Positions 3,968 to 28,120 of a DNA stretch of 64,000 nucleotides are shown piece by piece (the stretch's first letter is position 1; each line of letters starts with the position of its first letter). The stretch covers positions 62,001 through 126,000 of the forward strand of contig JANSWZ010000007.1 in assembly GCA_024743215.1 (NCBI GenBank), given 5' to 3'. Made by a program: the position numbers and the translations under genes. The notes beneath the pieces were generated by a model. It did no database searches and was not told the origin of the DNA. It was given only the letters and a program-made list of their open reading frames with translations. The DNA is from Alphaproteobacteria bacterium. GTDB taxonomy: Bacteria; Pseudomonadota; Alphaproteobacteria; Rhizobiales; GCA-2746425.

Positions 3968-3969
3968 GT

Positions 3970-4914
3970 TCAGTACTTCTCCCCCATTTTGTTCAGATGG
4001 CGGACAAGGATCATCGACAGACCGATAATGATAAACAGAAGGATCACCGCAAGTGCCGAAGCTTCGCCTGTGTAGAAATAGTTGAACGCTGTTTTCGCGA
4101 CGGCGAAAGAGACAGTCTCGGTACTCGACCCCGGACCACCGCCCGTGAGAGCAAAGAAAAGATCATATTGCTTGAAACTGTCGATAAGCCGCAGGATCAG
4201 TGCGATGAACAGCACAGGCGCGGACATGGGAAGGGTCAGGCGGAAAAACTTGTACGCCGGGCTTGCCCCATCAACTTCAGCCGCTTCATAGATGGTTTCA
4301 GGGATGCCACGAAATGCGGCGGTGGCCAGTAGAATGATGAATGGCGTCCACATCCAGGTATCTGCGGCAGCAGCGGCAAAAAGAGCTGGCGTGGCCTGGC
4401 TGAGCCAAAGGACTTTCTCCAGTCCCAGGCTGGAAATCAGATAATTCACGACGCCCCATTCAGAATTGAGCATGTACCGCCACAGGAAACCCACAACCAC
4501 CGGAGACAGCATCATGGGCATCATCAGCAAGGTGAAGATCACATCCCGGCCTTTGAACTTTTTCTGAAGTTGATAGCCCACGAATATGCCGATCACCATC
4601 TGGAGGCTGACGCAGACAAATACGAATTTGCCCGTGAAAATGAACCGTTGCCACAGGGCCTTGTCACTGAGCAGATAAGTGTAATTGTCCAACCCGACCC
4701 ATTTGTATCCCTCATGCGGGTTCAAGGCGGAGAAGTTGTAAAAACTGTAGCTGATCAACGAGATGATCGGATAAGCCACCATGAAAATGAGGATCAACAG
4801 CGTCGGCGACAAAAATCCGAAGATCATCAAACGGCCGCTGGATTTCTTCCTACCAGTGGCGGCTGAGCTGCGTCTGGTTGGTGTCGAGTTCTGGGATTGA
4901 TCGGTTACGGTCAT
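3970..4914 (-). CDS. Polyol-type ABC transporter permease (MalF-like)
   Basis: Inner-membrane permease of the CUT1 group, 314 residues, with six predicted hydrophobic helices and a Ser/Thr/Lys-rich cytoplasmic N-terminus of about 28 residues. The EAA loop reads EAAEVDGASP, followed by the family sequence TGGGPGSSTETVSF. It lies 3 bases downstream of the second permease gene and 2 bases upstream of ATPase B. It should pair with the permease at 4918-5790 to form the translocation pore. Confidence 0.88.
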   Translation of the reverse strand: MTVTDQSQNSTPTRRSSAATGRKKSSGRLMIFGFLSPTLLILIFMVAYPIISLISYSFYNFSALNPHEGYKWVGLDNYTYLLSDKALWQRFIFTGKFVFVCVSLQMVIGIFVGYQLQKKFKGRDVIFTLLMMPMMLSPVVVGFLWRYMLNSEWGVVNYLISSLGLEKVLWLSQATPALFAAAAADTWMWTPFIILLATAAFRGIPETIYEAAEVDGASPAYKFFRLTLPMSAPVLFIALILRLIDSFKQYDLFFALTGGGPGSSTETVSFAVAKTAFNYFYTGEASALAVILLFIIIGLSMILVRHLNKMGEKY

Positions 4915-4917
4915 GGC

Positions 4918-5790
4918 TCAGCTCCGTCCCAGCACACCGAAAGTCATACCCATAAGGAGATGCTTTCGGATGAGATAAAAGAAGATCAGAACCGGGATGA
5001 TCAATACGACACCCGCCGACATGATTTGGGTCCATTCGATGCCCGTCGCGCCGGACGCCGCGGAAATCTTCACCGGCAGTGTCTTGGCTTTCGTGGTCGT
5101 CAGGATCGAAGCAAATGCGAATTCATTCCATGCGAAGATGAAACAGAAGCCGGCAGTAGCGGCGATACCGCCCCGCACCATAGGCAAAACCAGATGAATG
5201 AAAGCATACATCCGACTGTACCCGCTGACCTGGGCAATCTGCTCGACTTCCTTGGGCACACCATCGAAGAAGCCCTTCATAATCCAGGTGGCCAGCCCCA
5301 CATTTGCAAAGATTGCCACCAGGACCAGTCCAATGCGTGTGTCCGCAAGGCCAAGCCGCGCAAACATCAGGTGATAAAATACAAGCACGGCCACCGGCGG
5401 CAACATGCGGGTTGATAAGACGAAAAACAGAAAGTCGCCTTTGCCTCTGAAGTCGTAGCGGGAACAGACATAGCCTGCGAGCGTGCCCAGAAAGACGGCC
5501 AGTACTGTGCCACTGGTGGACACAATGACCGAATTGATCAAAGCGTCGACAACACCATATGCCGAAGCAGTTCCAGCCGCCGCGCCAACACCAAAAACAC
5601 TCTCATAACCTGATGTGTTGATGTCGAAAACCCAGACGGGTGGCATCGCAAAAAGATCGGCCCGGCCCTTAAACGAAGAAATCAGAAGCCACAGGATCGG
5701 CCCGAGATTGTAGAATGTATAAGCTGCAAGCAGCACCAGAATAATCCATCTGGTCATGTTTGCCGATCTCGGTTGAGTAACTGCCGCCAT
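4918..5790 (-). CDS. Polyol-type ABC transporter permease (MalG-like)
   Basis: Second inner-membrane permease, 290 residues from the chosen start, with six hydrophobic segments and a variant coupling loop EQIAQVSGYS (EAA weakened, loop glycine kept). I chose ATG 5790 (MAAVTQPRS) because AAAGGG precedes it. An in-frame ATG at 5817 would add nine residues. It is the first gene after the binding protein, separated by a strong GC hairpin (5852-5891). Confidence 0.86.
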   Translation of the reverse strand: MAAVTQPRSANMTRWIILVLLAAYTFYNLGPILWLLISSFKGRADLFAMPPVWVFDINTSGYESVFGVGAAAGTASAYGVVDALINSVIVSTSGTVLAVFLGTLAGYVCSRYDFRGKGDFLFFVLSTRMLPPVAVLVFYHLMFARLGLADTRIGLVLVAIFANVGLATWIMKGFFDGVPKEVEQIAQVSGYSRMYAFIHLVLPMVRGGIAATAGFCFIFAWNEFAFASILTTTKAKTLPVKISAASGATGIEWTQIMSAGVVLIIPVLIFFYLIRKHLLMGMTFGVLGRS

Positions 5791-5851
5791 GTTTTCCGAC
5801 CCTTTGTCAAAATTCATCAATCGGCCGCACCAGGGCGGCTCGTAACAAAGT

Positions 5852-5891
5852 TTGCGGGCCGGAAACCGGGGAGGACCGGTCCGGCCCGCAA
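5852..5891 (-). promoter_or_regulatory. Intercistronic hairpin after the binding-protein gene
   Basis: An 11-bp GC-rich inverted repeat (5852-5862 pairing with 5881-5891), with a further ACCGG/CCGGT pairing inside it. It begins 20 bases past the binding-protein stop. There is no U-tract. Such hairpins commonly stabilise the upstream mRNA or attenuate readthrough so the binding protein is made in excess over the permeases; that role is inferred. Confidence 0.6.
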
Positions 5892-5910
5892 GGAAGATAC
5901 CGCGAAGGGG

Positions 5911-7323
5911 TTAGTTCACTGCAATGATTTCTTTGGTGCCGACAGGTGTAATTTCCTGATCCGGTACTTCAGGCGTGCTGTCACTCCGCGTGATCTCATA
6001 GCCTGCACGCTCCAATGTCCGCTCATGGCGCTTGGCAGCATCTGTCAATGCTTCTTCGACCGACTTGGTGCCGGTGATTGCATTGGAGATTTCTTCCTGC
6101 AACTGATCAAGCAGAACAGGATATTGCGGCAGATGCCAATAATCATTGAGGTACTGCAACGCGGTAGAGAATTGTGCGTTGTAGCTGTTAAGCCCTTGCC
6201 AATCGTCGCTTTCCAGAACCGCTTTCAAACCAGTCTGACACACGGCTGCATAGCGCTTCTGCTGTTCTGGCTGGAAATACCACTCCATGAAGGCTGTCAG
6301 TTCAGGCAGCTTTTTGGAGTATTTGTTAATGCCCATGCCCTGACCACCAACAGAAAACTGGCGGCGGAACATGCCATCGCGCCCAACGGCCCCTGGCAGA
6401 ATGCCAAACGCGGTGCCTTCGGCAAATTTGTTGACACTGGGATCAGCGTTAGAGCCATTGAAGTAGAACCATTGCATGGCCATGGCGAGTTGCCCCTGCT
6501 GAAAGGCAGCATTGACTTCGTCAAAACCCCAACTGCCCGAACCCGGGGGCGCAAAGTTGAACATGTCGACATAGGCCTGGACGCCATCAATGGAAGCAGG
6601 TGAATTCAGATAGCCCTGCACTTCGTAAGTTTCGGGATTATAAAGCTCGCCGCCAAAAGACCACAGGAACGAGTTGGATGCAGTTGTTGCAAAATCATAT
6701 TCGCGACCACCCATCTGGCCCCAGCCATAAAGCCCTTCATCAGGACGTGTGAAGAACTCAGCAACTTCTTTTGCTTCCTGATATGTTTGCGGCACGGCCA
6801 GTTCGCGGCCGTATTTCTCCTGAAACGCTGCCATCTCTGCAGGATCTTCAAACAGATCCCGACGATACATCATTCCATAGGCGTCCTGATTCATCGGCAA
6901 ACCATAGAAATTGCCGGAGTTATCGGGGTATTCTCCATATTGAGAAATCGATGCTGCCGGAAACAGCTCCGCTGACAAAAGTTCAGAACTTGCAAAGATA
7001 TCATTCAGCTTGACCGCATGGCCACCGCCCGCGAATTCTGCCGTTGATTGGCTGTCCCACATGGCGAAATCAAATCCATCGCCCTGAATTGCGAATTCGG
7101 ACGCAATCTTGTTGTGCCACTCAGGGCCGTAAGGCACGAGCGCAGGCACCAGCTTCACTGATTTGTCAGGATAATCCTTGGCAATTTCGACCAGCGCATC
7201 AGCGCAGGTTCCCGCATGCCAGACAAAGGTAAGCTCGGTTTCGGCCTGCGCAGACGTGCCCAAGAGGACCGCTGCAATCACCGAGACCGATGTAGTTGAG
7301 AGTAAACGTATTGAATTTTTCAT
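5911..7323 (-). CDS. Polyol/sugar ABC transporter periplasmic binding protein
   Basis: Extracellular solute-binding protein of the CUT1 type, 470 residues. A Sec signal peptide spans residues 1-27 (MKNSIRLLS... ending SAQA|ET). I chose ATG 7323 over an upstream ATG (7377) because GAGGAGGAA sits just before it. It is promoter-proximal in an eight-gene operon ending in DhaK/DhaL, which points to a polyol or ketose ligand. It is longer than typical maltose-binding-like proteins but similar in length to GlpV-type glycerol-binding proteins. Confidence 0.88.
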   Translation of the reverse strand: MKNSIRLLSTTSVSVIAAVLLGTSAQAETELTFVWHAGTCADALVEIAKDYPDKSVKLVPALVPYGPEWHNKIASEFAIQGDGFDFAMWDSQSTAEFAGGGHAVKLNDIFASSELLSAELFPAASISQYGEYPDNSGNFYGLPMNQDAYGMMYRRDLFEDPAEMAAFQEKYGRELAVPQTYQEAKEVAEFFTRPDEGLYGWGQMGGREYDFATTASNSFLWSFGGELYNPETYEVQGYLNSPASIDGVQAYVDMFNFAPPGSGSWGFDEVNAAFQQGQLAMAMQWFYFNGSNADPSVNKFAEGTAFGILPGAVGRDGMFRRQFSVGGQGMGINKYSKKLPELTAFMEWYFQPEQQKRYAAVCQTGLKAVLESDDWQGLNSYNAQFSTALQYLNDYWHLPQYPVLLDQLQEEISNAITGTKSVEEALTDAAKRHERTLERAGYEITRSDSTPEVPDQEITPVGTKEIIAVN

Positions 7324-13473: not shown

Positions 13474-14142
13474 GTGCAAGAAATTTGGAAAACTTACAAA
13501 GTGCCGGCCACAGTAACCTGTATCGGCTTAGTTTTTGCATTAATCTTGGGAGTGGTTCCCTTGTTTGACAAAAAGGACTCTTCGCCCCTCCAGCAAGCCT
13601 CCAATTCTCAGACTGCTGACCTCACGCGCGCTATGGAAGACTTAAAAATTTCCCACGCAACTGAGGTCGCCGAATTGAGGAAAACCATAGCCGCTCAGTC
13701 TCAATTATTCAGCAGCATCGACAACCGGCTGAACAACCTGGATCGTGGCGTCACGCGCACATTTTGGCGATCAAAGAAAACCGCTGAATTTGTGGAAACA
13801 CTGGCAGGTGCAAATCGAAAGATAAGCAATATCGAAAATCGGCTGAACAATCTGGATCGCGGTGTTACCCGCACGTTCTGGCGGTCAAAGCAAATTGCCG
13901 AATCCGTAGACGCTCTGGCTGGTGTAAATCGAAAGATAAGTAGTATCGACAACCGGCTGACCAACCTGGATCGTGGTGTTACACGCACGTTCTGGCGGTC
14001 AAAGCAGATTGCCGATTCGGTGGAAGCTCTGGCTGGTGCGAATCAAAAGATAAGCAATCTTGAAGCGCAGATGAACACTCTGAACGTCGCTGTTCCGCGC
14101 ATTTCAGGCCAAATCAGACAGCTTCAAATTGCATCCGAATAG
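13474..14142 (+). CDS. Membrane-anchored coiled-coil protein with 38-residue repeats
   Basis: A 222-residue protein of unknown function. GTG start, strongly supported by GGAGG eight bases upstream. One transmembrane segment (about residues 10-30, ATVTCIGLVFALILGVV) is followed by a charged helical region and then three near-identical 38-residue repeats (each containing RLNNLDRGVTRTFWRS) plus a divergent fourth unit. Spacing of hydrophobics and NRLxNLD patterns suggests a coiled coil. It could be a periplasmic spacer or a cytoskeletal/scaffold protein; I recognise no family. It stands alone between the Liv operon and an SDR gene. Confidence 0.7.
   Translation: MQEIWKTYKVPATVTCIGLVFALILGVVPLFDKKDSSPLQQASNSQTADLTRAMEDLKISHATEVAELRKTIAAQSQLFSSIDNRLNNLDRGVTRTFWRSKKTAEFVETLAGANRKISNIENRLNNLDRGVTRTFWRSKQIAESVDALAGVNRKISSIDNRLTNLDRGVTRTFWRSKQIADSVEALAGANQKISNLEAQMNTLNVAVPRISGQIRQLQIASE
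13717..14058 (+). repeat. Three tandem 114-bp in-frame repeats
   Basis: Units begin at 13717, 13831 and 13945, exactly 114 bp apart, each starting ATCGA(C/A)AA(C/T)CGGCTGA. A degenerate fourth unit starts at 14059. DNA-level conservation (shared GTCAAAG and GGATCG blocks) indicates fairly recent duplication or gene conversion, not only protein-level constraint. Confidence 0.85.
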
Positions 14143-15573: not shown

Positions 15574-17010
15574 CTAAAGCGCAAACTCCGTCACGAATTT
15601 CGTTCTTTGAAAGGCTTCAAGGCCTTCAAGGCCACTTTCAGAACCAAAGCCGGATGCATTAACACCGCCAAACGGTGTTTCAGGGGTTGAGACCATCATG
15701 TGATTGACACCCACCATGCCCGCATCCAGAAGCGCCTCGGTTTTCATGGCCAGCGATGAACTGCTGGTGAAGCAGAATGATGCAAGGCCGTATGGCAATG
15801 CATTGGCTCGCTCGATCACCTCATCAAAACCGGAGAAAGGCATGATGGAGGCGATAGGACCAAAAGGTTCTTCAGACAGAATACGGGCCGATTCAGGAAC
15901 ATCTGCCAGCACGGTTGGGCTGAAGAAATACCCAGGGCCTTCCATTCGCTTGCCGCCAAGATTCAAACTGGCCCCCTTGTCCACCGCATCACCAATCAGA
16001 GCATCAAGAGCATCAAGCCGGCGTGGCGCAATCATGGGACCCATTTGAGTACCCTCATCCAGACCATTTCCGATCTTCAGCTTGCTCGCCCGCTCCACGA
16101 AACCGGTCACGAATGCATCATAGAGGCTTTCGTGAATGAAAAACCGCGTCGGCGACGTGCAAACCTGCCCGGCATTTCTGAACTTGAAAGCCACGAGCAT
16201 ATTCATGGCATGCTCCAGATCAGCATCGGCGTGCACGATAACAGGCGCATGGCCGCCAAGTTCCATTGTGCTGCGCATAATGGTTTCAGATGCTCGCTTT
16301 TGCAGAAGCCGACCGACCTCGGTGGAACCGGTCAACGACATCTTCTTGAAAACAGGCGAAGCCAGCAGCGTTTTTGAAATATGGTCCGGGGTTCCAAATA
16401 CGATGTTGATAACACCCGCCGGTACACCAGCATCCTGGAAACAACGGGCAAGGGCCACCGCAGTGCCCGGTGTTTCCTCAGATGGTTTGACCACCACCGA
16501 ACAGCCAGCACCCAGCGCACCGGCAATTTTGCGAATGACATTTCCCGACGGAAAGTTCCAGGCGGCAAACGCAGCAACAGGACCGACCGGCTCCTTGTAG
16601 ACCATCTGGCGCACATTGGCCTGACGGGCAGGCACAATGCGGCCATAGGCACGCTTGCCCTCTTCCGCATACCAGCGCGTGACTTCGGCAGCGAACTGAA
16701 CTTCCGGCACGCCCTCGGCAAGTGACTTGCCGTTTTCAATGGTCAGGTGACGGCCAATTCTTTCCTTGCGCTCTTCGATCAGATCAGCCGCTTTGGACAT
16801 GATCGCATAACGCTCAATCGCCGTCTTGTTCTTCCATATTCGAAAGCCCCGGTCTGCAGCATCCGCAGCTTCGGCAAGATCTGCATCTGTGCAAACAGGC
16901 ACCGTTGCCAAAACCTCTTCGGTTGCAGGATTTATCAAATCGGTCGTTTTGCTATCACCGGACTGACGCCATTTGCCATCGATCAGAAGTTCAATCTTCT
17001 CGTCATACAT
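15574..17010 (-). CDS. Aldehyde dehydrogenase (succinate-/oxoglutarate-semialdehyde type)
   Basis: NAD(P)-dependent aldehyde dehydrogenase, 478 residues. Catalytic glutamate E250 (MELGG) and nucleophile C284 (GQVCTS); cofactor-binding WNFPSGN near 151 and KPSEETP near 175. Similar to the GabD/oxoglutarate-semialdehyde group. In hydroxyproline degradation, 2-oxoglutarate semialdehyde dehydrogenase follows the DapA-like deaminase, and this protein or the one at 19775 could fill that step. It is last in the operon, 49 bases after the epimerase gene with a CAGA-repeat leader. Confidence 0.88.
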   Translation of the reverse strand: MYDEKIELLIDGKWRQSGDSKTTDLINPATEEVLATVPVCTDADLAEAADAADRGFRIWKNKTAIERYAIMSKAADLIEERKERIGRHLTIENGKSLAEGVPEVQFAAEVTRWYAEEGKRAYGRIVPARQANVRQMVYKEPVGPVAAFAAWNFPSGNVIRKIAGALGAGCSVVVKPSEETPGTAVALARCFQDAGVPAGVINIVFGTPDHISKTLLASPVFKKMSLTGSTEVGRLLQKRASETIMRSTMELGGHAPVIVHADADLEHAMNMLVAFKFRNAGQVCTSPTRFFIHESLYDAFVTGFVERASKLKIGNGLDEGTQMGPMIAPRRLDALDALIGDAVDKGASLNLGGKRMEGPGYFFSPTVLADVPESARILSEEPFGPIASIMPFSGFDEVIERANALPYGLASFCFTSSSSLAMKTEALLDAGMVGVNHMMVSTPETPFGGVNASGFGSESGLEGLEAFQRTKFVTEFAL

Positions 17011-17033: not shown

Positions 17034-17060
17034 CTGCCTGTCTGTCTGTTGTCTGTCTGT
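17034..17060 (-). repeat. Short tandem CAGA repeat in an intercistronic leader
   Basis: On the minus strand the sequence runs (CAGA)2-ACA-(CAGA)3-GCAG, between the epimerase stop and the aldehyde dehydrogenase ribosome site (AAAGG, near 17020). Such tetranucleotide tracts can slip; here slippage would change only intercistronic spacing. Confidence 0.75.
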
Positions 17061-18061
17061 CAGTTGCACAGAAAGCCGTCCGCGAGCGGATCGTCCTGGC
17101 TGCCAATAAAGCAGTGGGTACCGGTAATGTGGGCAAGGCCCTCAATCACGGGGTCATAGTGGGTTTTGGAGCTATTTCCGGCGTCTGAAACCGGCGTGGC
17201 CGACGCCATGAAATCGACATCCAGAATGTTGCGCGAGACAATGCGTTCCCCCGAGGAGATTTCACCGGCTTCAATCAGTTGGGCCAATCTCGCAGAGGTG
17301 CCGGTTCCACAAGGTGAGCGGTCAAATTTGTTGGGTGCCAGAACAACAAGCTGGCGGTTGATGAATTGACCGGCCTCTCGGTTTCCCCGATGGAACAGCA
17401 CACTATGAATGGCCTCAGCCATGTGCGGAACGTCGCCAGCATCGATGTACGCATTGATTGCAGACTTGATAGAGGAGCCAACATCCATCGCATGTCGCAC
17501 ACCATTGGGCGTTAAATCCACACCAACCGAACTCGCCTCGACCAATGCGTACCAATTGCCACCATAAGCCAGATCGAAGGACGCCGGAATGTCCGGGAAC
17601 ATCAGATCTGCTGCCACCACAAAGGCTGGAACATTCTTGAAGCCGACCGAAATGATCCGTCCGTTCTGATAACGAACACCAACGGAAATAATCCCCGCAG
17701 GAACTTCCAGGTTGAACTGAAGGCTTTCCCGTCCTTTGGGTTGGATCAACCCAAGATGATCCAGTGTTACCGCCAACCCAATGGTCGCGTGACCGCACAT
17801 GGGCAGGTAATTGTATGAACCCAGAAAAAACGCGCCGAAATCAGCCTTTGCGCTTTCTGTAAGGACAGCACCGACCATGGCCGCGTGACCGCGCGGTTCG
17901 TGAAGCAGAAATGTGCGCAGATGATCATGGTGCTGCGCAAAGTCATCCATCTTGTCTGCAACGGTTTCGCCGCGTAATTGCGGCAAGCCGCCCGTCACAA
18001 CACGTGTGGGATGACCGGCGGTATGGCTGTCGACGCTGGTGATGTTTGGAATGTCCGGCAT
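17060..18061 (-). CDS. Proline racemase/4-hydroxyproline 2-epimerase family enzyme (2)
   Basis: Cofactor-independent amino-acid epimerase, 333 residues. DSHTAGHPTR is at 11-20, and both catalytic cysteines are present: C89 in PMCGH and C251 in DRSPCGTGTS. The Cys/Cys pair indicates racemase or epimerase, not trans-3-hydroxyproline dehydratase (Cys/Thr). The reaction would be L- to D-configuration at C2 of hydroxyproline or a related imino acid. The start is 2 bases after the GMC stop (TAA-AC-ATG). It is the second intact paralogue in the operon; they are clearly diverged, suggesting different substrates. Confidence 0.87.
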   Translation of the reverse strand: MPDIPNITSVDSHTAGHPTRVVTGGLPQLRGETVADKMDDFAQHHDHLRTFLLHEPRGHAAMVGAVLTESAKADFGAFFLGSYNYLPMCGHATIGLAVTLDHLGLIQPKGRESLQFNLEVPAGIISVGVRYQNGRIISVGFKNVPAFVVAADLMFPDIPASFDLAYGGNWYALVEASSVGVDLTPNGVRHAMDVGSSIKSAINAYIDAGDVPHMAEAIHSVLFHRGNREAGQFINRQLVVLAPNKFDRSPCGTGTSARLAQLIEAGEISSGERIVSRNILDVDFMASATPVSDAGNSSKTHYDPVIEGLAHITGTHCFIGSQDDPLADGFLCN

Positions 18062-18063
18062 GT

Positions 18064-19782
18064 TTAACGCCGATGCCCTTCCTTGATGCTGTCTGCTATT
18101 TTCTCAGCAGCCATGATCGTTGTCAGCATGGTATTGCCGCTGATGACAGACGGCATGATGGACGCATCCACCACACGCAAACCATCCACCCCCACGACCC
18201 TGCCATCAGCATCAACGACCGCCATGGGATCCTGCTTATCTCCAATTTTGCACGTGCCGCTGGCATGCCAACTGCCGCAGGCATTCTCGATGATCCAGGA
18301 GCGCAGAACATTGGAGGAACCTCGAAGCGCTTGCACATCAATGTCTGGCACAATTGCATTTTCGATCATGAGTTTACGAGCCAGGGGACCACATTCCATT
18401 ACCCCCGCTGCAAGCGACGTCAGAAACCAGTTCTTGCGGCTGACCGCTCCAAGTTCACGAACACGTTCGGAGAAGGTTGCTGGAAATATCTCACCAATGG
18501 CAGACGACAGCGCCGGATCGTCAACCATTGCGAAAAGCCGGTGCATGCCATCCTCAAGCCGCTTGAGGTCCCGTTCATCGGACAATTGCCTGAAATTGAC
18601 ATCCGGGCCGTGCGCCGGATCGGCATGTCGAAGCTTGACCTCACCGGTCGAATAAGGACGGTTTACGCAAACGATGATTGAGGCAAGGCGCTTGCCAAGG
18701 GGGTGCCAGGCCGCGCGATTGGATGGTAGAATGAACATATCGCCCGGATTGGTGTCTGCCAGTTCCGAACTGTAACGATACCCCATCTGAATGTGGCGGC
18801 GCATGCTTTTCGGAAGCCTGGATTTCCGGGGCAGAAAACCAGCCAGGGCAACCATGGGATGGTCCTGCAAATTCTGACCTACACCCTTCCGATCAGCCCG
18901 CACGTCTATGCCCATCTGTTTCAGATGATCGGCAGGGCCAATGCCTGAGCGCATCAAAATTGCCGGAGACTGCAGCGCGCCGGCTGAAATGATAATCTCC
19001 TGGCCTTTTAGCAGCTTGTGGCCAGCGCCATCAGTAACCTCAATGCCACTGGCTTTGTGACCGTCAAACACAATGCTGTTCATCTCGGTCGACGCCAATA
19101 CCTTCAGATTGGGACGGGTACGCACATACCGGTTGAGATAAGCCACCGCCGCAGATACCCGCTTGCCATCAACATTGTTGATGGTCATGGGAAAATAACC
19201 GTCCCGAAAAATACCGTTGTGATCTTCGATATTCTCTACACCGCGCTTGTCCAAAACGCTGGCGGTTGCTTTGGCGATGGGCGACCACTCATCTTTCGGA
19301 ATGCGGCGCAGCGGTAAAGGGCCGCTGCCACCATGCAAGTCCGAAGTGCCATAATCCAGATCAGTCTCAAGTTTGCGAAAGTACGGCAGGACGCCATTCC
19401 AGTCCCATCCCCTTGCACCACCTTCAGCCCATTCATCGTAATCCCAGGGCAGCCCGCGAAAGGCGAATTGTCCGTTTATGGACGTGCCACCACCCATCAC
19501 CTTCGCCTGCTCATAGGTTCTGGGCAGCACATCAGATGATATTGGATTGTTCAGATGAACCTTGATGTTCTGCCAATGATAAGAGCTGTTGAAATAGGCA
19601 ACGATCGGATAGGAATCGAGAATGTCCTCCGGAACATTGTCTGGCGGCGTATCCGGTCCGGCTTCAACCAAAGCAACTTGCAAATTTGGGTCTTCAGACA
19701 AGCGGCTTGCGAGCACTGCACCCGCAGCACCACCACCCACGATGATATAATCAAATGCGGTTTCGCCGAGCCGCTCAGCCAT
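18064..19782 (-). CDS. GMC-family FAD oxidoreductase (choline dehydrogenase-like)
   Basis: FAD-dependent alcohol oxidoreductase, 572 residues. The FAD-binding GGGAAGAVLASRL lies near residue 16, and C-terminal catalytic motifs are GSWHASGTCKIG (His) and SGNTMLTTIMAAEK (Asn). I chose ATG 19782 (MAERLGETAFDYIIVGG), which overlaps the preceding aldehyde dehydrogenase stop by 8 bases; a longer frame upstream runs inside that gene. GMC enzymes oxidise primary alcohols to aldehydes, and two aldehyde dehydrogenases flank it. Its substrate in this imino-acid operon is unclear. Confidence 0.86.
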   Translation of the reverse strand: MAERLGETAFDYIIVGGGAAGAVLASRLSEDPNLQVALVEAGPDTPPDNVPEDILDSYPIVAYFNSSYHWQNIKVHLNNPISSDVLPRTYEQAKVMGGGTSINGQFAFRGLPWDYDEWAEGGARGWDWNGVLPYFRKLETDLDYGTSDLHGGSGPLPLRRIPKDEWSPIAKATASVLDKRGVENIEDHNGIFRDGYFPMTINNVDGKRVSAAVAYLNRYVRTRPNLKVLASTEMNSIVFDGHKASGIEVTDGAGHKLLKGQEIIISAGALQSPAILMRSGIGPADHLKQMGIDVRADRKGVGQNLQDHPMVALAGFLPRKSRLPKSMRRHIQMGYRYSSELADTNPGDMFILPSNRAAWHPLGKRLASIIVCVNRPYSTGEVKLRHADPAHGPDVNFRQLSDERDLKRLEDGMHRLFAMVDDPALSSAIGEIFPATFSERVRELGAVSRKNWFLTSLAAGVMECGPLARKLMIENAIVPDIDVQALRGSSNVLRSWIIENACGSWHASGTCKIGDKQDPMAVVDADGRVVGVDGLRVVDASIMPSVISGNTMLTTIMAAEKIADSIKEGHRR

Positions 19783-21247
19783 GTTGGAGCCACACATTTT
19801 TGAACCGCAGGAAACTTTCAAGCCCGCTACGACCCATCTCCTTGCCAAAGCCGGAGCCGTTGAAACCACCTTGCGGCGTTGCGTAATCCGGCTGGCGACC
19901 ATGGGCGTTCACCCAGACCGTTCCTGCCTCAATTTGAGAGGGAAGGCGCATCGCCTTGCTGAAATCATCCGTATAGACACTAGCCGCCAACGCGTAACTT
20001 GGATGGTTGGTCATGGCTATGCCATCCGCTTCATCCTCATACTCGTAAACCGACAGGACTGGACCAAAAAACTCGTCGCGAAAGCCCGTTGAGGTTTCCG
20101 GAACATTCCGCAGTATTGTTGGCTGGTAATAAGCGCCGGAATTCATGCTGGCATCACGGCCACCACCACAGATAACCTCAGCCCCGTCTGCCAGCGTCTG
20201 CGCCAGCATCTCGTCAATGCGTTTGGCCTGTTTTTCTGAAATGATTGGCGGCAGCGTGCAATCGGATTTCCATGTTGGAGCAGCCTTGCGCCCTGCTGCG
20301 ATTTCCATAACCCGTTCCAGCAGCTCTTCCGATTTACTACTTGGTACAATCAGACGTGTCCCGGCCGTGCAAACCTGACCGGAATTGGCAAGGAAACCAT
20401 TGGCAACATTCGTCGCCACTGCATTCATATCAGTTACATCTTTCAGCACCAGTTGCGGCGACTTGCCGCCCAGTTCCAGCGTCACAGGTTTTGTGCCGGT
20501 CGCAGCAGCATCTGCCATCACCCGTGCACCCGTCGCGGAAGATCCGGTGAAGGTTATCTTCCTGACAAGAGGATGGCGCACAAGATGCGAGCCAGACGGG
20601 CCCGCGCCCTGAATGACGTTCAACACGCCCTTTGGCAGTCCCGCCTCAAGTGCCAGTTCTGCAAAAACCAGAGCAGAATAAGGTGTGAGTTCCGAAGGCT
20701 TGAGCACCACAGAATTGCCGACGGCCAAAGCAGGCGCAGATTTCCAGATCGCATTGATGGCCGGGAAATTGAAAGGCGCAATGCCTGCGATGACACCATA
20801 GGGCTCAGGACGAACCATGGAGGTTGCGCTGTTGGTTCCGGCAATGATCTTGCCTTCAATCTTGTCGGCCCATTCAGCAAAGAACCGCAAGGCACCTGAT
20901 GCCCGTACCAGATCACGGTTGATGAGATCTGCAACGGGCCTGGTTGTTGATGCAGCTTCAATTCGTGCAATACGTTCGCGGTTTTCGTCTATCAGAGCGG
21001 CCCAACGATGCAGAACAGCAGCGCGGTCCAATGGAGAGGAATTGCGCCACTCCGCCGTCATGAACGCGCGATGAGCCGACGTCACAGCGCGGTCAACAAT
21101 CTCTTCATCTGCTATGGGAATGGGCGCTGTTTCAACCCCGTCAGACGGCCGAAACACTGGCAGTTTCACGCCATCAAAGACGCGCGCTCCATCAATCAAA
21201 TGCGCTGCGACGAGTTCTATGGAATTGGGATCGAAATCGTATGTCAT
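19775..21247 (-). CDS. Aldehyde dehydrogenase (betaine-aldehyde-like)
   Basis: NAD(P)-dependent aldehyde dehydrogenase, 490 residues. Catalytic E258 (LELGGKSP) and C293 (GQVCTAG), with FNFPAINAIWK near 159 and KPSELTP near 183. The sequence resembles the betaine-aldehyde/phenylacetaldehyde group more than GabD. It lies 19 bases after the epimerase stop and overlaps the GMC gene start, so the pair (GMC alcohol oxidation, then aldehyde oxidation) is probably functionally coupled. Confidence 0.87.
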   Translation of the reverse strand: MTYDFDPNSIELVAAHLIDGARVFDGVKLPVFRPSDGVETAPIPIADEEIVDRAVTSAHRAFMTAEWRNSSPLDRAAVLHRWAALIDENRERIARIEAASTTRPVADLINRDLVRASGALRFFAEWADKIEGKIIAGTNSATSMVRPEPYGVIAGIAPFNFPAINAIWKSAPALAVGNSVVLKPSELTPYSALVFAELALEAGLPKGVLNVIQGAGPSGSHLVRHPLVRKITFTGSSATGARVMADAAATGTKPVTLELGGKSPQLVLKDVTDMNAVATNVANGFLANSGQVCTAGTRLIVPSSKSEELLERVMEIAAGRKAAPTWKSDCTLPPIISEKQAKRIDEMLAQTLADGAEVICGGGRDASMNSGAYYQPTILRNVPETSTGFRDEFFGPVLSVYEYEDEADGIAMTNHPSYALAASVYTDDFSKAMRLPSQIEAGTVWVNAHGRQPDYATPQGGFNGSGFGKEMGRSGLESFLRFKNVWLQHG

Positions 21248-21266: not shown

Positions 21267-22274
21267 TCAAACGCCGGTGAGCCTGAACCCTTCCGGGAAT
21301 GGATCTCTGGGGTCCACGAAGAAATTAAATGAGCCGGTCAGATAGGCCGAGCCCGTTACCGTGCATGATATGGCAGGCAAGTCACCGACTTGGGTGGCGC
21401 CCGTCACTTTGCCTGTAAATACGGTGTCAAGAATGCCTGCATGGCGGAAACTATCACCGGGCTTCAGCTCACCTTTTGCAGCCAGCATGGCCATGCGTGA
21501 AGCTGTGCCGGTGCCGCAGGGCGAGCGATCGATTACTGTCGGTGGGCATACGACAACATTCTTGCCGTCGCAGTTTTCGCCATCCCCATCAGCGATAATC
21601 TCGATCTGATAGATTTCATTGACATGCTCCATTGTCGGGTGCTGCACCGGATGGTCGACCAGAGCATCGCGCAGCTCGGCTGCTGCGGTCACCACTTTCC
21701 AGGCATAGTCCGGCGTGAGTTCAAGGCCCAGATCACGAGCTTTCACCAACAGATAGAAATCCCCGCCAAAAGCAATATCGGCACGCACATCGCCATAAGT
21801 CTTGGTTTTGACCATAATTTCTTCGCGGTAGAGAAAGCTGGACGGCATTTCCAGCGTCACGTCCAACGCCACGCCATTTTCAACCCGCACCCGAGCGGGC
21901 ACAACGCCAGCCGGTGTATCTAGGCGGACCAATGTCTCACCTTCCACAGCATCCACATATCCTGCTTCAACCGCGATGGTTGCCACTGCCATGGCGCAGT
22001 GACCACACATGGGCGGATAAGTATCAGGCTCAAGAATGAGCATGCCGATATCGGCATCTTCCGAACAGGCCTCGGTCAGAACAGCGGCGGGCATATTGAA
22101 ACTGCCGCGCGGTTCAAACAGAACCAGTTTGCGCAGCCAGTCACGCGTCATCAGATCAGCGCGCTTTTCGACCATCGTCGAACCGCGAATGGGACCAAAA
22201 CCGGACGTGACCAAACGCAGGGGACAACCGGCGGTGTGGGAATCTATGCCCTGAATTATTCTGGAACTGCGCAT
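21267..22274 (-). CDS. Proline racemase/4-hydroxyproline 2-epimerase family enzyme (1)
   Basis: Epimerase of 335 residues with DSHTAGCPLR at 11-20 and both catalytic cysteines, C90 (PMCGH) and C253 (DRSPCGTGTA). The start shares one base with the DapA-like gene stop (TGATG), a coupling that fits sequential steps of hydroxyproline degradation. The family interconverts trans-4-hydroxy-L-proline and cis-4-hydroxy-D-proline, or L/D-proline; the exact substrate cannot be read from the motifs. Confidence 0.88.
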   Translation of the reverse strand: MRSSRIIQGIDSHTAGCPLRLVTSGFGPIRGSTMVEKRADLMTRDWLRKLVLFEPRGSFNMPAAVLTEACSEDADIGMLILEPDTYPPMCGHCAMAVATIAVEAGYVDAVEGETLVRLDTPAGVVPARVRVENGVALDVTLEMPSSFLYREEIMVKTKTYGDVRADIAFGGDFYLLVKARDLGLELTPDYAWKVVTAAAELRDALVDHPVQHPTMEHVNEIYQIEIIADGDGENCDGKNVVVCPPTVIDRSPCGTGTASRMAMLAAKGELKPGDSFRHAGILDTVFTGKVTGATQVGDLPAISCTVTGSAYLTGSFNFFVDPRDPFPEGFRLTGV

Positions 22275-23191
22275 CAGGCAAGCTCATCCAGGGAAGCAAT
22301 AAGAGCGGCAACATTATTGTCAGAAAGCAGTGTTTCCACCTTCGACATCTGCTCATCACTGAAAGGAAGAAGAGGTTTGCGTGGCTTGCCAACCGGCTGA
22401 TCCAGGCTGTTCATCACAGCTTTGATGCCGGCATAATAGCTGCCCTGCTTGAAGCACGAATAGATGGCAAACAGCGCTGGTTCAAGCTTGTCAATCACGG
22501 CTGTATTGTTCGCAGCACAGGCATCAAAATAGCGCCGAACCAAAGTGCCAGACAATTGATGTGCCATTGCAACGACACCAACAGCACCCACCGCAAGTGC
22601 GGGGCGGATCATGGTTTCATAGCCGACAAAAACGTTGATCTTATCGCCCAGTTTGCGCACCAGTTCGGTGACCTGAATAATATCGCCGGAGCTGTCTTTG
22701 ATCGCGACAACTGTAGGCAGTTTGGCAAGTTCTGAAACAATCCCGATATCCAGCGCCACACCAGCTCTCTTCGGCGAATTATAGAGCATGACAGGAAGCT
22801 GCGTTGCTTCGCAAAGGTCTTTGAAATACTGAATAATCTCCCGACGATCGGGAGCTGCATAGATCGGCGGCATGGCCAATATGCCATCAAGTCCGGCCTT
22901 CTCCGCTTCCTGCGCCAATCGGATTGCATTTGCAGGCAACAGATCTGAAACACCGGCAATTACGGGTACATCGCTTTTCGCTGCCGCCCGGGTACATTTG
23001 AAAAGTTCGATCCGCTCTTCCATTGTCATGGCGTAAAACTCGCCAGTGCTGCCGCAAACGATCACAGCATCTGCGCCATTGGAAACATTGGCATCGACCA
23101 GATCAATGTAGCGTTTGAAATCTATATTGCCGTTGTCGTCGAATGGTGTGACCAGAACACTTTGAATTCCAGACCAATTGGGGTTGAGCAT
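22274..23191 (-). CDS. DapA/NAL-superfamily lyase, candidate pyrroline-4-hydroxy-2-carboxylate deaminase
   Basis: Class I aldolase fold, 305 residues. GSTGE at 47-51, Schiff-base lysine K165 (VVAIKDSSGD) and Y137 (MLYNSPKR). In bacterial hydroxyproline catabolism a DapA-like enzyme converts 1-pyrroline-4-hydroxy-2-carboxylate to 2-oxoglutarate semialdehyde plus ammonia, and its coupling to an epimerase and aldehyde dehydrogenases fits. The expected preceding enzyme, a D-amino-acid-oxidase-like dehydrogenase, is not in the operon. Dihydrodipicolinate synthase itself is unlikely in this context. Confidence 0.84.
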   Translation of the reverse strand: MLNPNWSGIQSVLVTPFDDNGNIDFKRYIDLVDANVSNGADAVIVCGSTGEFYAMTMEERIELFKCTRAAAKSDVPVIAGVSDLLPANAIRLAQEAEKAGLDGILAMPPIYAAPDRREIIQYFKDLCEATQLPVMLYNSPKRAGVALDIGIVSELAKLPTVVAIKDSSGDIIQVTELVRKLGDKINVFVGYETMIRPALAVGAVGVVAMAHQLSGTLVRRYFDACAANNTAVIDKLEPALFAIYSCFKQGSYYAGIKAVMNSLDQPVGKPRKPLLPFSDEQMSKVETLLSDNNVAALIASLDELA

Positions 23192-23206: not shown

Positions 23207-24034
23207 TTATTCAGATTTTATGAAGGGCTTCATCATCTCTGCGGTTTGATGAAAGCGGTTGACGAACCCTTTGACGCGCTCGTTCGGCGGGTTCATGAGA
23301 ATATCGGATGGCGGTCCATCAGCGCAGACAGTTCCCTGATCCAGAAACACAACCCTGTTCGCAACTTCCAGCGCAAAGCCAAGCTCATGGGTCACAACAA
23401 TCATGGTCATGCCTTCCTTGGCCAGTTCAATCATCGTGCTGAGAACCTCGCCAACAAGTTCCGGATCCAGGGCCGATGTCGGCTCATCAAAGAGCATGAC
23501 TTCGGGTTCCATGTTCAGCGCACGGGCGATGGAAACACGCTGCTTTTGGCCGCCTGACAGGCTTGACGGAGACCGGTCGGCAAAGTCAGCCATACCAACC
23601 TTTTTCAGGTAGCTCATCGCACGGTCACGGTTGGTGCTATGAGCCTCACCTTTCACTGTCTTCGGACCTTCCATGACATTGGCCAGAACTTTCATGTGCG
23701 GGAACAGATTGAACTGCTGGAATACCATGCCGATACGGCTGCGGATCGCGTTGGTTTGCGCGGCCGAAAGACCCAGCTCATCCTTGCCATTGTCAAAATG
23801 GAAGAATGGATCACCACTCAGCGAAATCTTGCCATGGCTCGGCTTGGCCAGAAGGTTCAGACAACGCAGAAGCGTGGTTTTCCCGGAACCGCTGGACCCG
23901 ATCAGCGCCACCACGTCACCGCGATTAACCGTCAGGTCAACGCCTGAAAGAACCTGCGCCTCCCCATAAGACAGACGGATATCTTCGACCGAAATGGCAG
24001 GCGTGGTCGGGGCGGCTTGCGTTTCGGAACTCAT
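23207..24034 (-). CDS. Polar amino-acid ABC transporter ATPase
   Basis: ATPase of 275 residues of the HisP/GlnQ type: Walker [10 protein letters not shown], signature LSGGQKQR, Walker [13 protein letters not shown], and H-loop VVTHELGFA. The start overlaps the permease stop by ATGA. It belongs to the uptake system for the operon's substrate, probably an imino acid or derivative. Confidence 0.9.
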
Positions 24035-24684
24035 GACTTCACCTCTTTCTGTTCGAGGCGACGTGCTATGTAGGTCAGCGGAACAAGTATCGCCAGGAAC
24101 ACCAGCGCAATGGTCGTGTAGACTTCCAACGGACGATAGGTGAATGATGCAATGTATTCAGCTTGATACAGCAGATCAGGCACAGTGATAACGGCAAGAA
24201 GCGTCGTATTTTTCAGTTGAATGATCATCTGGCCAGCCAGTGGCGGGATCATGCGGCGCAGGGCTTGTGGCAAGATAACCCGGACATTCATTTGTCGGTA
24301 GGACATGCCAAGCGCCACCGCAGCGTCGCTTTGTCCTGAATCGATGGATTGAATTCCGGCTCTGAAAATCTCAGCAAAATAGGCAGCGCCATAGAGGCTC
24401 AACGCCAGGATGCCAGCTGCTTCCTTGGAGATGTTGATGCCCATGAAGATCGGCAGCGCGTAATAAGCCCAAAGCAGCCAGACCAGCAGCGGAATATTTC
24501 GGAAAAACTCAACAAACAGTCGGCCAATCACCACCACGATCTTGTTGCTTGTCAACTGCATCAGGGCAACGATCAAACCGATTACCAGACCGATCAACGA
24601 GGTGATGACGGTATATTCAAGAGTAATCAGAACACCGGACCAAATCAGGTGCGAGTTCTGTGTAATGGCCGACCAGTCAAACAT
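24031..24684 (-). CDS. Polar amino-acid ABC transporter permease
   Basis: HisM/GlnP-type permease of 217 residues with an N-terminal hydrophobic helix, coupling region [25 protein letters not shown], and [19 protein letters not shown]. Only one permease gene is present, so a homodimeric channel is likely. Confidence 0.9.
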
Positions 24685-24743: not shown

Positions 24744-25586
24744 TCAGAAGCTGAAGTCACCTGGCAGGACAGACAGATCCAGTCCAGCGTCTTCAAAGGA
24801 CTTTGCCAGCTTGCCCTGGGCCAGACCCAGCGAACGCTGCTGGGACGTCCAGTTTTCAAGCCAGTTCAACCAACCCGCATTACCAGCTTCCCGGCGCACG
24901 CCGATCACAGCTGTGTTTACGAGTGCAGGGCTTGGAACAAAGACTTCGCCTTTGACTTCCGGAGCAACCTGCACAGCGTCAAAACTGGCAAGCAGCATGG
25001 CATCGGCACGATTGGAGTTGATTTCCAGAACGCCCAATGAGCGTGTGCCAACCACAATGATGTCAGCCTTCGGTGTCAGAGCTTCGGCAACAACCTGCAT
25101 GGTGCTGCCTTTCTGAACCGCAAGACGAACCGATGGATCGTTCAACTCTGCCCAGCTTTTCTTGTCGAAACCGGCTTTGGAAACAACGGTCCATGGACCA
25201 TAGAAAAGTGGAATGGACGTGTAATCAACCACAAGACCACGCTGTGGATTAGGGTTCAAGCCAATGGCGATATCGACCTTGCGCGCCTGAAAGTCAGCGG
25301 CAAGATTGCCCCATGTTGTTTCAACGAATTCAAGCTCGACACCCAGAATGGCAGCGATTTCCTGCCCCCATTCAACGTAGAAGCCACTCCATTCGCCTGT
25401 GGCAGGGTCCTTGATGTAGCTGGGTTCTTCGCCAATGATGACTGGGAATTTCAGAATGCCTGAGCTTCTGATGTTGTTCAGAACGAGCGAGGGATCGTCC
25501 GCCTGAGCCGGTTGCGTAAATGCACCAACTGTCATGAACAGAGCTGCAAAAGCGCAGATCCAGGTTTTAAACTTTCTAAAAGCCAT
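24744..25586 (-). CDS. Polar amino-acid ABC transporter binding protein
   Basis: Periplasmic-binding protein type II, 280 residues, with a signal peptide of about 29 residues ending QPAQA|DD. Internal features FYVEWGQEIAAILGVELEFVETTWGN and DIAIGLNPNPQRG match the family-3 layout. A strong AGGAGG precedes the ATG. The start is 30 bases after the fusion regulator stop. The ligand is unproven; operon context suggests a hydroxyproline-like imino acid. Confidence 0.88.
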   Translation of the reverse strand: MAFRKFKTWICAFAALFMTVGAFTQPAQADDPSLVLNNIRSSGILKFPVIIGEEPSYIKDPATGEWSGFYVEWGQEIAAILGVELEFVETTWGNLAADFQARKVDIAIGLNPNPQRGLVVDYTSIPLFYGPWTVVSKAGFDKKSWAELNDPSVRLAVQKGSTMQVVAEALTPKADIIVVGTRSLGVLEINSNRADAMLLASFDAVQVAPEVKGEVFVPSPALVNTAVIGVRREAGNAGWLNWLENWTSQQRSLGLAQGKLAKSFEDAGLDLSVLPGDFSF

Positions 25587-25616: not shown

Positions 25617-27509
25617 TTAAGAGCCGAGGAAGCCGCACTGCAATGGATCATCAGGCTCGAGCACGAGCGTGGAAATTCCATTGAGATGCGCACGTCCCGA
25701 AATTTTGGGGACGCATACGAGGCGTCCCTCGGGCGCCTTCGCAATACTGATGATTTGTCCAGACAGCTGACCGCCAAAAATGCTTTCAGCGTGGAATGTC
25801 TGCCCGGCTGCCAATTGGCCTGCAGCAACCTTCTGGACCATCCGCGCCGCAAGTCCGGTGACACCCGGTGAGCGATCAAATCGGTTGCGGTCAATGGACA
25901 GGAAAAGGCGTTCGGAGTTTTTTGAAACGGCTTGAAACAACAGAACCGATTCAATCAACTTGACCTCGGGACGATCAAGCTCCGTCAGGGCACTGCGCAG
26001 TTCATCTGCGGCCAGCAATATCTCATGCAGCGCATGGTCGTGCAGTTCAAGTCCCAGCGACGCTGCGTCAATAACGGCATGCGTGTTTCCGCCATATACG
26101 ATCGACAGCTCGACCGTTCGGCCACGAAATGGCACAGAAATATCATCAGCTGTCACATAAGCCTGCGGCAAAGCTACATCGATCTGATCACTTTTGGGGT
26201 GCACGGTAACGCCGACAGTGGAGCGCGGCATTTCGATGGTAAATTCTGTTCTACCATTTAACCGACCCATCGATTTCAGTGCTTTTGCATAGCCAAATAC
26301 GGCATGACCACACAGTTCGGGATAACCGTATGATGTGATGAAAAAAGCGCCAAAATCCGCCGTTTTGGAAGCGAACGGAACCAGGCCGAAAGAGCCGCTA
26401 TGCCCGCGCGGCTCTTGAAGCAGGAGTGACCGCATGTGATCGTGATGTTTCTCGAAGGATCGGGCTTTTTCCGTAGCCGTGTCACCTTCCAGTCCTGGGA
26501 GGGATTCAATCAAAATACGTGTGGGATGACCTGCAGTATGTGTTTCCAGAACCCTGAAGGTTTCTGCGCCTTCCGGGAGTTGTACGTCCAGCGTGCCTTC
26601 ACCCAGACCAGAACCGTGCGAGACACCAAGGCCAAAACGATTGCGCGGCTGATCAAATTGCATGGCGGAAACGCGTGCAGCATCCGTGTTGACCCAAAGC
26701 ACTTTCGCCGCCTCAGATCCCGGATTTCTCCAGCGGTGTTCCAGAGAACTGTTGAAATAGGCACTGTCTCCGGGTTGCAAAACAGCTGGTGGACGGCCAG
26801 CCAAGGTGATCTCTAGCTCACCCGACAGAATGTAAATGAGCTCCTCACCTTCGTGAGAATAGTAGCCATCGCTTTCAGACCCGCTTTCAATGGTCCACAC
26901 TTCCACGTCCATCAGCTTTTCAGCAACTGTGAGCTGCTCGACCGATACGCCCGGCCCGAAAGTTCCAACAACCCGGCCGGCGCCTCTTCGGACGATGGGA
27001 ACATGGTCGTGATGCGTGCCACCCAACAACTCTGCAAGAGAGCGCCCGAATGCTAAAGCAACACTGTTCAGTCTGGCCGGAGACAAAAAGGCGGTGCCAC
27101 GCTCGAACATACTCAGATGCGAGACGCCAATATCGGTTTTCTCCGAAAGAGCACGTAGCGACAAACCACTCTCTTTGCGCATTGTGCGAATACGCGCACC
27201 GATTTTACCGAAATCTACTGTCGTGCGCTCAATACCTGAATCCTGAGCGGCAGGTTTCAGCTCATCCTGTTCGCTATCAATCAATTCCTTGATCCTTGTC
27301 AGGCTGTAACCGGACAATCTGCGCATTTGTTCGATGTTGCGAATGCGATCCATATCGTCAGATGAAAACGACCGATGACCACTCGCGGATTTGAACGGAT
27401 GAATCAATCCGGCATTTTCCCATGAACGAAGCGTCGAAATGGACACGCCAATTACCTTGGCCACGTGCCCAATCGAATAGGGTTTTTTATCGTTTGACGG
27501 CTTCAACAT
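25617..27509 (-). CDS. MerR-XRE-cupin-proline racemase fusion regulator (catalytically degenerate)
   Basis: A 630-residue single frame with four modules. (1) MerR HTH at 11-80 (YSIGHVAKVIGVSISTLRSW). (2) XRE/Cro HTH at 103-163. (3) Cupin at 202-276, with EEL in the first motif and PGDSAYFNSSLEHRW in the second. (4) A full-length proline racemase/hydroxyproline epimerase domain at 318-630. The racemase domain keeps ETHTAGHPTR (322-331), C400 in PELCGH, and GGNTHAVID (473-481). The second catalytic motif DRSPCGTGT is replaced by DRSPGVTGL (545-553), so the cysteine is glycine (G549), and ordinary two-base racemisation should be impossible. It is first in the operon that encodes two active epimerases. 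I infer a DNA-binding sensor in which the dead enzyme binds the pathway substrate. Known family parts: XRE-cupin regulators are common; this fusion I do not recognise. Confidence 0.85.
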   Translation of the reverse strand: MLKPSNDKKPYSIGHVAKVIGVSISTLRSWENAGLIHPFKSASGHRSFSSDDMDRIRNIEQMRRLSGYSLTRIKELIDSEQDELKPAAQDSGIERTTVDFGKIGARIRTMRKESGLSLRALSEKTDIGVSHLSMFERGTAFLSPARLNSVALAFGRSLAELLGGTHHDHVPIVRRGAGRVVGTFGPGVSVEQLTVAEKLMDVEVWTIESGSESDGYYSHEGEELIYILSGELEITLAGRPPAVLQPGDSAYFNSSLEHRWRNPGSEAAKVLWVNTDAARVSAMQFDQPRNRFGLGVSHGSGLGEGTLDVQLPEGAETFRVLETHTAGHPTRILIESLPGLEGDTATEKARSFEKHHDHMRSLLLQEPRGHSGSFGLVPFASKTADFGAFFITSYGYPELCGHAVFGYAKALKSMGRLNGRTEFTIEMPRSTVGVTVHPKSDQIDVALPQAYVTADDISVPFRGRTVELSIVYGGNTHAVIDAASLGLELHDHALHEILLAADELRSALTELDRPEVKLIESVLLFQAVSKNSERLFLSIDRNRFDRSPGVTGLAARMVQKVAAGQLAAGQTFHAESIFGGQLSGQIISIAKAPEGRLVCVPKISGRAHLNGISTLVLEPDDPLQCGFLGS

Positions 27510-28120
27510 GTAGATATTTTCTTTATATATAGTTTTATTGAATTTTTTTGAGCGTAAGTTGATATTTTGAATATGTCAACGATCAATGGTCGTGATTTGA
27601 GGGCATAATTGACAATCGCGCTGCGCAATGAGGTCGCAATCGATGTTCTGGAAACAACGTCTCAAGCCATTCCTTCACGTCGAAACAGCAAATCCAAAAA
27701 AGGCAATTTTGAGTATTTTCAGTATCAATATCAGATGCTTAAAAAACAAACGAATTTGCAATTCACATGGATTGGATTTCATCAATCCCGTGAGCCATAC
27801 CTTGTTCCAGTATCCTTATTGTGAAAAACTACCGGAAATGATACTCCCCCGAACTTAAGCGCAATCTCCATTCAGGCTGATCGACAAAGCTGAATTCACG
27901 CATCGAAGAAGCTTGAACTCTGCTGCCACCATCAAGTTGCGAGTAAAAGTGCAGACGCATGTAAAGCGCAAATAACGACGCAGAAAAAATTGCCTCAAAA
28001 TTAATCACAGCCTGTAGTGCTGAAACTTTGGCACAACTCGCTATCAGATTGATGTTGCCAAACAAAAATCTGTATGCCTAAATTCCGTTCAGAGACAATC
28101 CAACTCCTTGGGAGTTCAAT
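27510..28120. other. AT-rich divergent intergenic region
   Basis: 611 bases between the fusion regulator (minus) and the PotA-like gene (plus). Two open frames (27609-27824 plus, 27829-28065 minus) have no good ribosome sites or recognisable motifs and I do not call them. It should contain the autoregulated promoter of the 12-kb operon and the promoter of the polyamine-type transporter. A candidate operator lies at 27558-27580. Confidence 0.5.
27558..27580. promoter_or_regulatory. Candidate operator of the fusion regulator
   Basis: An imperfect inverted repeat reading GTTGATATT-TTG-AATATGTCAAC (left arm one base shorter), 49 bases upstream of the regulator start codon. MerR and XRE proteins both bind inverted repeats near their own promoters. 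Assignment is by position only. Confidence 0.4.

Follow-up and report, generated by a model that had tools for sequence, protein, structure and literature searches.

Why should a transcriptional regulator carry a whole proline racemase domain, and what could this domain do when one of its two catalytic cysteines is replaced? These questions are raised by a gene in the window, by which is meant here the whole stretch of 64,000 nucleotides that was analysed. From the DNA alone, it had been predicted that a single 630-residue frame joins MerR, XRE, cupin and racemase domains, and that the racemase part is an enzyme fold converted into a ligand sensor. The present analysis suggests that the fused protein is probably a local one-component regulator of an operon for imino-acid uptake and catabolism, in which the epimerase-derived domain would serve as the sensor of a pathway ligand.

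The fused gene and its operon

The four-domain frame is borne out by both the open reading frame (ORF) and Pfam; its strand, the minus strand, was absent from the original prediction. The minus-strand ORF of 25617..27509 starts with ATG and encodes 630 residues without an internal stop, and the plus-strand reading of the same interval contains stops. The features of the gene are as follows, the coordinates of the first three domains being computed from their residue ranges.

25617..27509, minus strand: fused regulator gene, MerR-XRE-cupin-racemase, 630 aa (ORF and Pfam; same frame in 17 further genomes)
27276..27482, minus strand: MerR_1 helix-turn-helix, residues 10-78 (Pfam)
27030..27194, minus strand: HTH_3 (XRE), residues 106-160 (Pfam)
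26694..26903, minus strand: Cupin_2, residues 203-272 (Pfam)
25632..26555, minus strand: Pro_racemase, residues 319-626 (Pfam and similarity to solved racemases)

All four domains score above their gathering scores (MerR_1, PF13411, 64.1; HTH_3, 46; Cupin_2, 68.3; Pro_racemase, 200.6 bits). The Pro_racemase match (PF05544) covers positions 1-324 of the 325 in the profile, so that the domain is full-length, and its closest solved racemase is 6j7c (E 2.3e-41). Structure prediction from the three racemase-bearing proteins of the window gave a mean pLDDT of 47.1, and the model was unusable. Separate translation of the racemase part from an internal start was also considered. An in-frame ATG lies 36 codons 5' of the racemase domain motif in 14 of the 18 fused genes known (see below), at -32 in two and at -42 in the genome G089; in G087, the stretch searched contains no such ATG. 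This candidate was set aside, since none of the 18 genes has a good ribosome-binding match at such an ATG (best, 4 of 6).

The full-length fusion was found in 18 genomes, the window's included, and the other 17 proteins are 44-93% identical to the window protein; a Pfam scan of seven of the 17 recovered the four domains in every one. Matches passing E 1e-60 to 1e-100 were taken as fused, and the best three or four candidates per genome were scored, so that the number of genomes is at least 18. In the census, the fusion occurs in 2 of 5 genomes of the genus (which is the whole family sampled), 8 of 397 of the order and 2 of 385 of the class (one being the window's own), with further counts of 1/87, 2/3, 1/1, 10/296, 1/5 and 1/20; these counts overlap and give 18 distinct genomes. 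Because 10 of the 18 come from one genus of family f36, a count such as 16 against 2 does not stand for 18 independent events. Outside the class, the fusion was sought in plasmid records, a viral collection and one genome_contigs scan. The viral collection held no relative of the fused protein, and the sole result of the genome_contigs scan was a partial match in Enterococcus that covers residues 9-63. No fusion was found among the 910 plasmid records with a match, where only Ruegeria has a single place covering more than 80% of the query; its genes are separate there, with an XRE-cupin gene on its own and adjoining DapA-like and racemase genes. An unfused precursor in the same operon was sought among the plasmid matches. 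In a similar operon of Rhizobium sp. ACO-34A, a GntR-FCD regulator adjoins the racemase. On a plasmid of Mesorhizobium sp. AR10, a ProR2-like racemase gene with a broken frame lies at 6043-7166 of L021, where the plasmid table has no gene.

The fused regulator is gene 1 of ten co-directional minus-strand genes, in agreement with its predicted place at the head of an operon. The other nine follow it in this order.

24744..25586, minus strand: solute-binding protein (SBP_bac_3; ORF, Pfam, neighbourhood comparison)
24031..24684, minus strand: ABC permease (BPD_transp_1; ORF, Pfam, neighbourhood comparison)
23207..24034, minus strand: ABC transporter ATPase (ORF, Pfam, neighbourhood comparison)
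22274..23191, minus strand: DapA-like lyase, DHDPS family (ORF, Pfam, neighbourhood comparison)
21267..22274, minus strand: ProR1, free-standing racemase-family enzyme with both cysteines (ORF, Pfam, motif)
19775..21247, minus strand: aldehyde dehydrogenase (ORF, Pfam, neighbourhood comparison)
18064..19902, minus strand: GMC oxidoreductase, longest ORF (ORF, Pfam, neighbourhood comparison)
17060..18061, minus strand: ProR2, the other free-standing enzyme of the racemase family, likewise with both cysteines; its group is the nearest to the fused domain (ORF, Pfam, motif, tree)
15574..17010, minus strand: second aldehyde dehydrogenase (its best NCBIfam model, succinate-semialdehyde dehydrogenase, scores under the cut-off)

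The true start of the GMC oxidoreductase is probably further in, because its longest ORF overlaps the preceding gene. ProR1 and ProR2 had been called active epimerases; the presence of both cysteines was confirmed in each, and activity is what these motifs would suggest. Known hydroxyproline pathways consist of an epimerase, a D-amino-acid oxidase, a DHDPS-family deaminase and a semialdehyde dehydrogenase (PMC4113996). The gene set of the operon resembles these pathways, and its substrate would by analogy be an imino acid of the hydroxyproline kind. In all 18 operons, a GMC-family oxidoreductase (18064-19902, minus strand, in the window) replaces the usual D-amino-acid oxidase of hydroxyproline operons. 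Elsewhere in the window, positions 13717-14058 of the plus strand, within the ORF 13474-14142, hold three tandem copies of a 114-base unit with 82% matches, and the frame across this unit repeats NRLNNLDRGVTRTFWRSK.

All 18 fused genes head the same operon, and the 17 other neighbourhoods have the gene order of the window, G089 being the sole exception. There (L043), the GMC gene (4354-6045) and the aldehyde dehydrogenase gene (2874-4505) have no ProR2 between them, and the operon is otherwise identical. ProR2 was searched for through 11 of the 18 whole genomes, and an orthologue of at least 57% identity was found in ten. In the G089 genome, the search met nothing but the fused domain itself (46%) and paralogues of at most 35%; this assembly, of about 60 contigs, has a listed completeness of 100% and a contamination of 5%. 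The seven genomes outside this search have ProR2 in the operon, so that ProR2 is present in 17 of the 18 operons.

The active site of the fused racemase domain

In HyPRE, a hydroxyproline epimerase, a change of either cysteine to serine abolishes epimerisation (PMC1964878). In a solved epimerase, the ring nitrogen is held by the His and the Asp found in the two motifs (PMC4113996), and dehydratases of the superfamily carry Thr at the second site (PMC4113996; PMC4364671). As had been predicted, the window protein keeps the first cysteine, C400, within LCGH, and has G549 in place of the second, in DRSPGVTGL as against DRSPCGTGT in both ProR1 and ProR2. The Thr of trans-3-hydroxyproline dehydratase is likewise absent from this site, which is occupied by Gly549. 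The codons concerned are the following.

26310..26312, minus strand: C400 codon (first catalytic cysteine; present in all 18 fused genes)
25860..25865, minus strand: codons of G549-V550, at the second catalytic cysteine and its glycine; Gly-Val in 16 of 18

C400, H402 and D545 are invariant in all 18 fused proteins. Positions 549-550 are Gly-Val in 16 of them and Cys-Gly in two, G089 and G087, the latter having CAH instead of CGH in its first motif. The Cys-to-Gly change is thus not universal among the fused copies. The change reaches beyond this site: out of 47 positions conserved in at least 15 of 16 Cys-Cys racemases (reference sequences of our own choice from 49 free-standing rows), 26 are shared by every one of the 16 Gly-Val fusions, 14 by some of them and seven by none. 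Four of these seven (322, 537, 549 and 550) are unchanged in both Cys-Cys fusions. Val occupies position 550 in all 16 Cys/Gly fusions, and T551 is lost in 13; since G550 and T551 lie on the carboxylate side, their alteration could impair not only catalysis but also binding.

Among the racemases of the loci examined, 18 fused and 53 different free-standing, the Gly-Val pair is found only in fused ones. Three of the 53 free-standing racemases are Cys/Gly and one is Ser/Gly. The three come from A. deltaense (two genes) and R. acidisoli (one gene), they keep GTG after the site, and the R. acidisoli protein scores above the NCBI equivalog cut-off for 4-hydroxyproline epimerase (582.8 vs 376). Free-standing racemase-family genes of the Cys/Gly kind, with MCGA and DRSPGGTG, were seen at L062 1931-4017 and L064 3019-4017, and one is annotated as 4-hydroxyproline epimerase. 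The existence of such proteins means that Gly at the second site is not in itself proof of inactivity. Of the earlier description of the domain as catalytically dead, what stands is that the second cysteine is gone in 16 of 18. At the level of sequence, it is the Gly-Val pair, not Gly alone, that sets the fused group apart. The fused domain also matched six NCBIfam models of the proline racemase superfamily and fell short of the cut-off of each, the best equivalog score (proline racemase / 4-hydroxyproline epimerase) being 150.7 bits against a cut-off of 376. Since the Cys-to-Ser changes abolish epimerisation in HyPRE and dehydratases carry Thr at the second site, it is a good prediction that the fused Cys/Gly domain likely no longer epimerises, although chemistry with one base is possible.

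Such chemistry is the basis of an alternative in which the protein would be a bifunctional regulator-enzyme, with C400 as the single base of a one-sided reaction, e.g., dehydration. It is in line with the dehydratases, which are active with Thr as their second-site residue (PMC4113996; PMC4364671), with the free-standing Cys/Gly members, one of which exceeds the epimerase cut-off, and with the purifying selection described below. However, the dehydratases and the free Cys/Gly members keep Gly-Thr-Gly, in contrast to the fusions with their Val550 (16 of 16) and frequent lack of T551 (13 of 16). Moreover, the domain is below the cut-offs of the six superfamily models, and the operon already has ProR1, plus ProR2 in 17 of 18 genomes. 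Persistence as an enzyme is therefore regarded as unlikely.

History and selection

A tree was built from 67 racemase rows. All 18 fused domains fall into a single clade (100/99), and ProR2 is the sister group of this clade (92/87, on an unstarred branch). The tree was midpoint-rooted, with several long rows among the free-standing ones; its 14 other free-standing racemases were chosen by us, and Microvirga, L010 and L013 were left out. Within the fused clade, the 16 Gly-Val members fall on one side (100/100) and the two Cys-Cys members on the other (100/98). The regulator half was compared with six standalone MerR-XRE-cupin regulators, that of S. meliloti being left out because the coordinates taken for it extended beyond its stop codon; in the resulting tree the fused proteins are again one clade (99/98), with the same division into Gly-Val and Cys-Cys members (96/98 and 86/70). 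Because the trees of both halves agree, the simplest history would be one fusion with an intact racemase, followed by one loss of the cysteine.

The standalone regulators bear on a second alternative, in which the racemase domain is a dimerisation or stability module and sensing falls to the cupin, as it does in ordinary XRE-cupin regulators. Standalone MerR-XRE-cupin proteins are common and work without a racemase, and racemase-family enzymes can be dimers, as known from a human relative (PMC9309405). However, the invariance of C400, H402 and D545 in 18 of 18 goes beyond the needs of a scaffold, and the fusion stays in a racemase-bearing operon in all 18 cases; a purely structural role appears quite improbable.

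The fused racemase domain is maintained under purifying selection. In seven close pairs its omega is 0.058-0.149, lower than that of ProR2 (0.118-0.211) in all seven and mostly higher than that of ProR1 (0.039-0.088). In the distant pair G340/G504, where dS is above 1, the fused domain has 0.266 and ProR2 0.182, and in the distant pair G087/G089 the fused domain has 0.288. Over long times, the fused domain evolves faster than ProR1; branch lengths give no clear signal of a rate increase after the cysteine loss. An assembly artefact was rejected and a decaying fusion has hardly any chance of being true: loss of a catalytic residue could be the start of decay, but the fusion is present in the same open frame in 18 genomes, for which reason the fusion is neither chance nor artefact, and the low omega of the close pairs and a Gly-Val state common to the whole clade also speak against decay.

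It is known that enzyme folds have been reused as sensors of transcription factors. To our knowledge, intermediate stages of such a change are seldom at hand. Tentatively, the fused protein may have begun as a regulator-epimerase, as which it would persist in the G089 lineage; the other branch would have been disarmed once, from Cys-Gly to Gly-Val, in the presence of free ProR2, and have become a receptor of the substrate. The G089 fusion is the only ProR2-type racemase there and has both cysteines, and this transcription factor may itself be a pathway enzyme. The kept cysteines may be tied to the missing ProR2, a link that rests on one genome, since G087, the other Cys-Cys genome, does have ProR2. 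The same fusion, operon and promoter block (see below) exist in two states, one with both catalytic cysteines and the other with a single one, and the operon also encodes a related free enzyme. Since both states occur in natural proteins, the step from enzyme to sensor is testable with natural proteins, and a novel type of cyclic imino-acid sensor may come of it.

The promoter block and known regulators

Upstream of the fused gene lies a conserved block.

27551..27579 (pattern match 27553-27579), minus strand: conserved promoter block (predicted; anchor in 18 of 18 upstream regions)

By eye, it reads TTGACA, a 17-base spacer and TACGCT, with the inverted arms TTGA/TCAA; promoters of the MerR family have a long spacer of 19-20 bases. 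The anchor TTGAC-N3-TTCAA is found in all 18 upstream regions, the rest of which has diverged, and the block contains 1.46 bits per column against 0.30 in the preceding 28 columns (clade-weighted, seven effective clades). A longer operator pattern matches the window once and 100 shuffles not at all; finding it again is not independent proof, because it was drawn from the same sites. A stricter pattern has exactly one match in 16 of 17 neighbourhoods and none in that of G061 (L040). A consensus promoter scan did not report the block. In several family f36 genomes (L041, L046-L054), a second inverted repeat, CATACCG...CGGTATG, was seen by eye downstream of it.

The following mechanism may be drawn from these data. 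A single fusion would have joined a MerR-XRE-cupin regulator to a ProR2-like racemase, which two concordant trees support, and the sequences show that most of the descendants found have lost the second proton-transfer cysteine and kept the first cysteine, the His and the Asp. The racemase domain would then bind a pathway imino acid without epimerising it, and binding would shift the position of the DNA-binding half on the conserved block, which covers the -35 box of the operon, the cupin being a second possible sensor. By analogy, the likeliest form of control is repression relieved by the ligand. Repression is the first guess because XRE-cupin regulators repress neighbouring genes via palindromic sites beside their own genes (PMC7901475). 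The predicted conversion of an enzyme fold into a ligand sensor is thus favoured by the conserved fusion, the three invariant residues, selection and the promoter block, with the qualification that the cysteine loss extends to 16 of 18 only.

How does the fused protein compare with known systems? Its three N-terminal domains and their order recur in the standalone MerR-XRE-cupin regulators, as a Pfam scan of one of these proteins showed, and the identity over them is 34-37%. The six in the tree, from plasmids of Shinella, Agrobacterium, Sinorhizobium and Paracoccus, have 267-280 aa; they stop at about residue 275 with an NTPPTF-like tail and lack the racemase domain, and none of the six has a racemase gene beside it in the annotated surroundings examined. 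XRE-cupin regulators had been described as known, rightly, and the MerR-XRE-cupin part is not new either: 127 plasmid records have a place covering at least 80% of it. Since such proteins without a racemase are common, the racemase is the new part of the architecture. The original prediction named no published fusion of the four domains, and the titles and abstract beginnings examined among openly licensed papers likewise describe no racemase joined to a DNA-binding regulator. At L055, L096 and L099 (Shinella, Agrobacterium and Sinorhizobium plasmids), standalone regulators lie beside genes for an electron-transfer flavoprotein, folD and purU, and look as if they control demethylation pathways.

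ErfA, PsdR, PauR (PMC7901475) and PuuR have HTH_3, Cupin_2 and metabolic neighbours in common with the fused protein, and a site with inverted arms beside their own gene, as has the block here, a candidate site. Unlike the fused protein, the XRE-cupin architecture of PMC7901475 has no MerR domain, and that paper nowhere uses the word racemase. ProR, 4HypE and t3HypD share with the fused domain the full-length domain, the first-cysteine motif and the nitrogen-site His and Asp; they carry Cys-Gly or Thr-Gly at the second site, whereas the fused domain has Gly-Val and is joined to a regulator. Lacking the second cysteine and scoring below the cut-offs, it is not an ordinary catalytic racemase. 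The working precedent for an enzyme fold as sensor is MocR/GabR. Its winged helix (GntR-type) and aminotransferase fold are both absent from the Pfam matches of the fused protein, to which it is unrelated; the analogy lies in the way of working, in which a DNA-binding domain is combined with an enzyme fold as the sensor.
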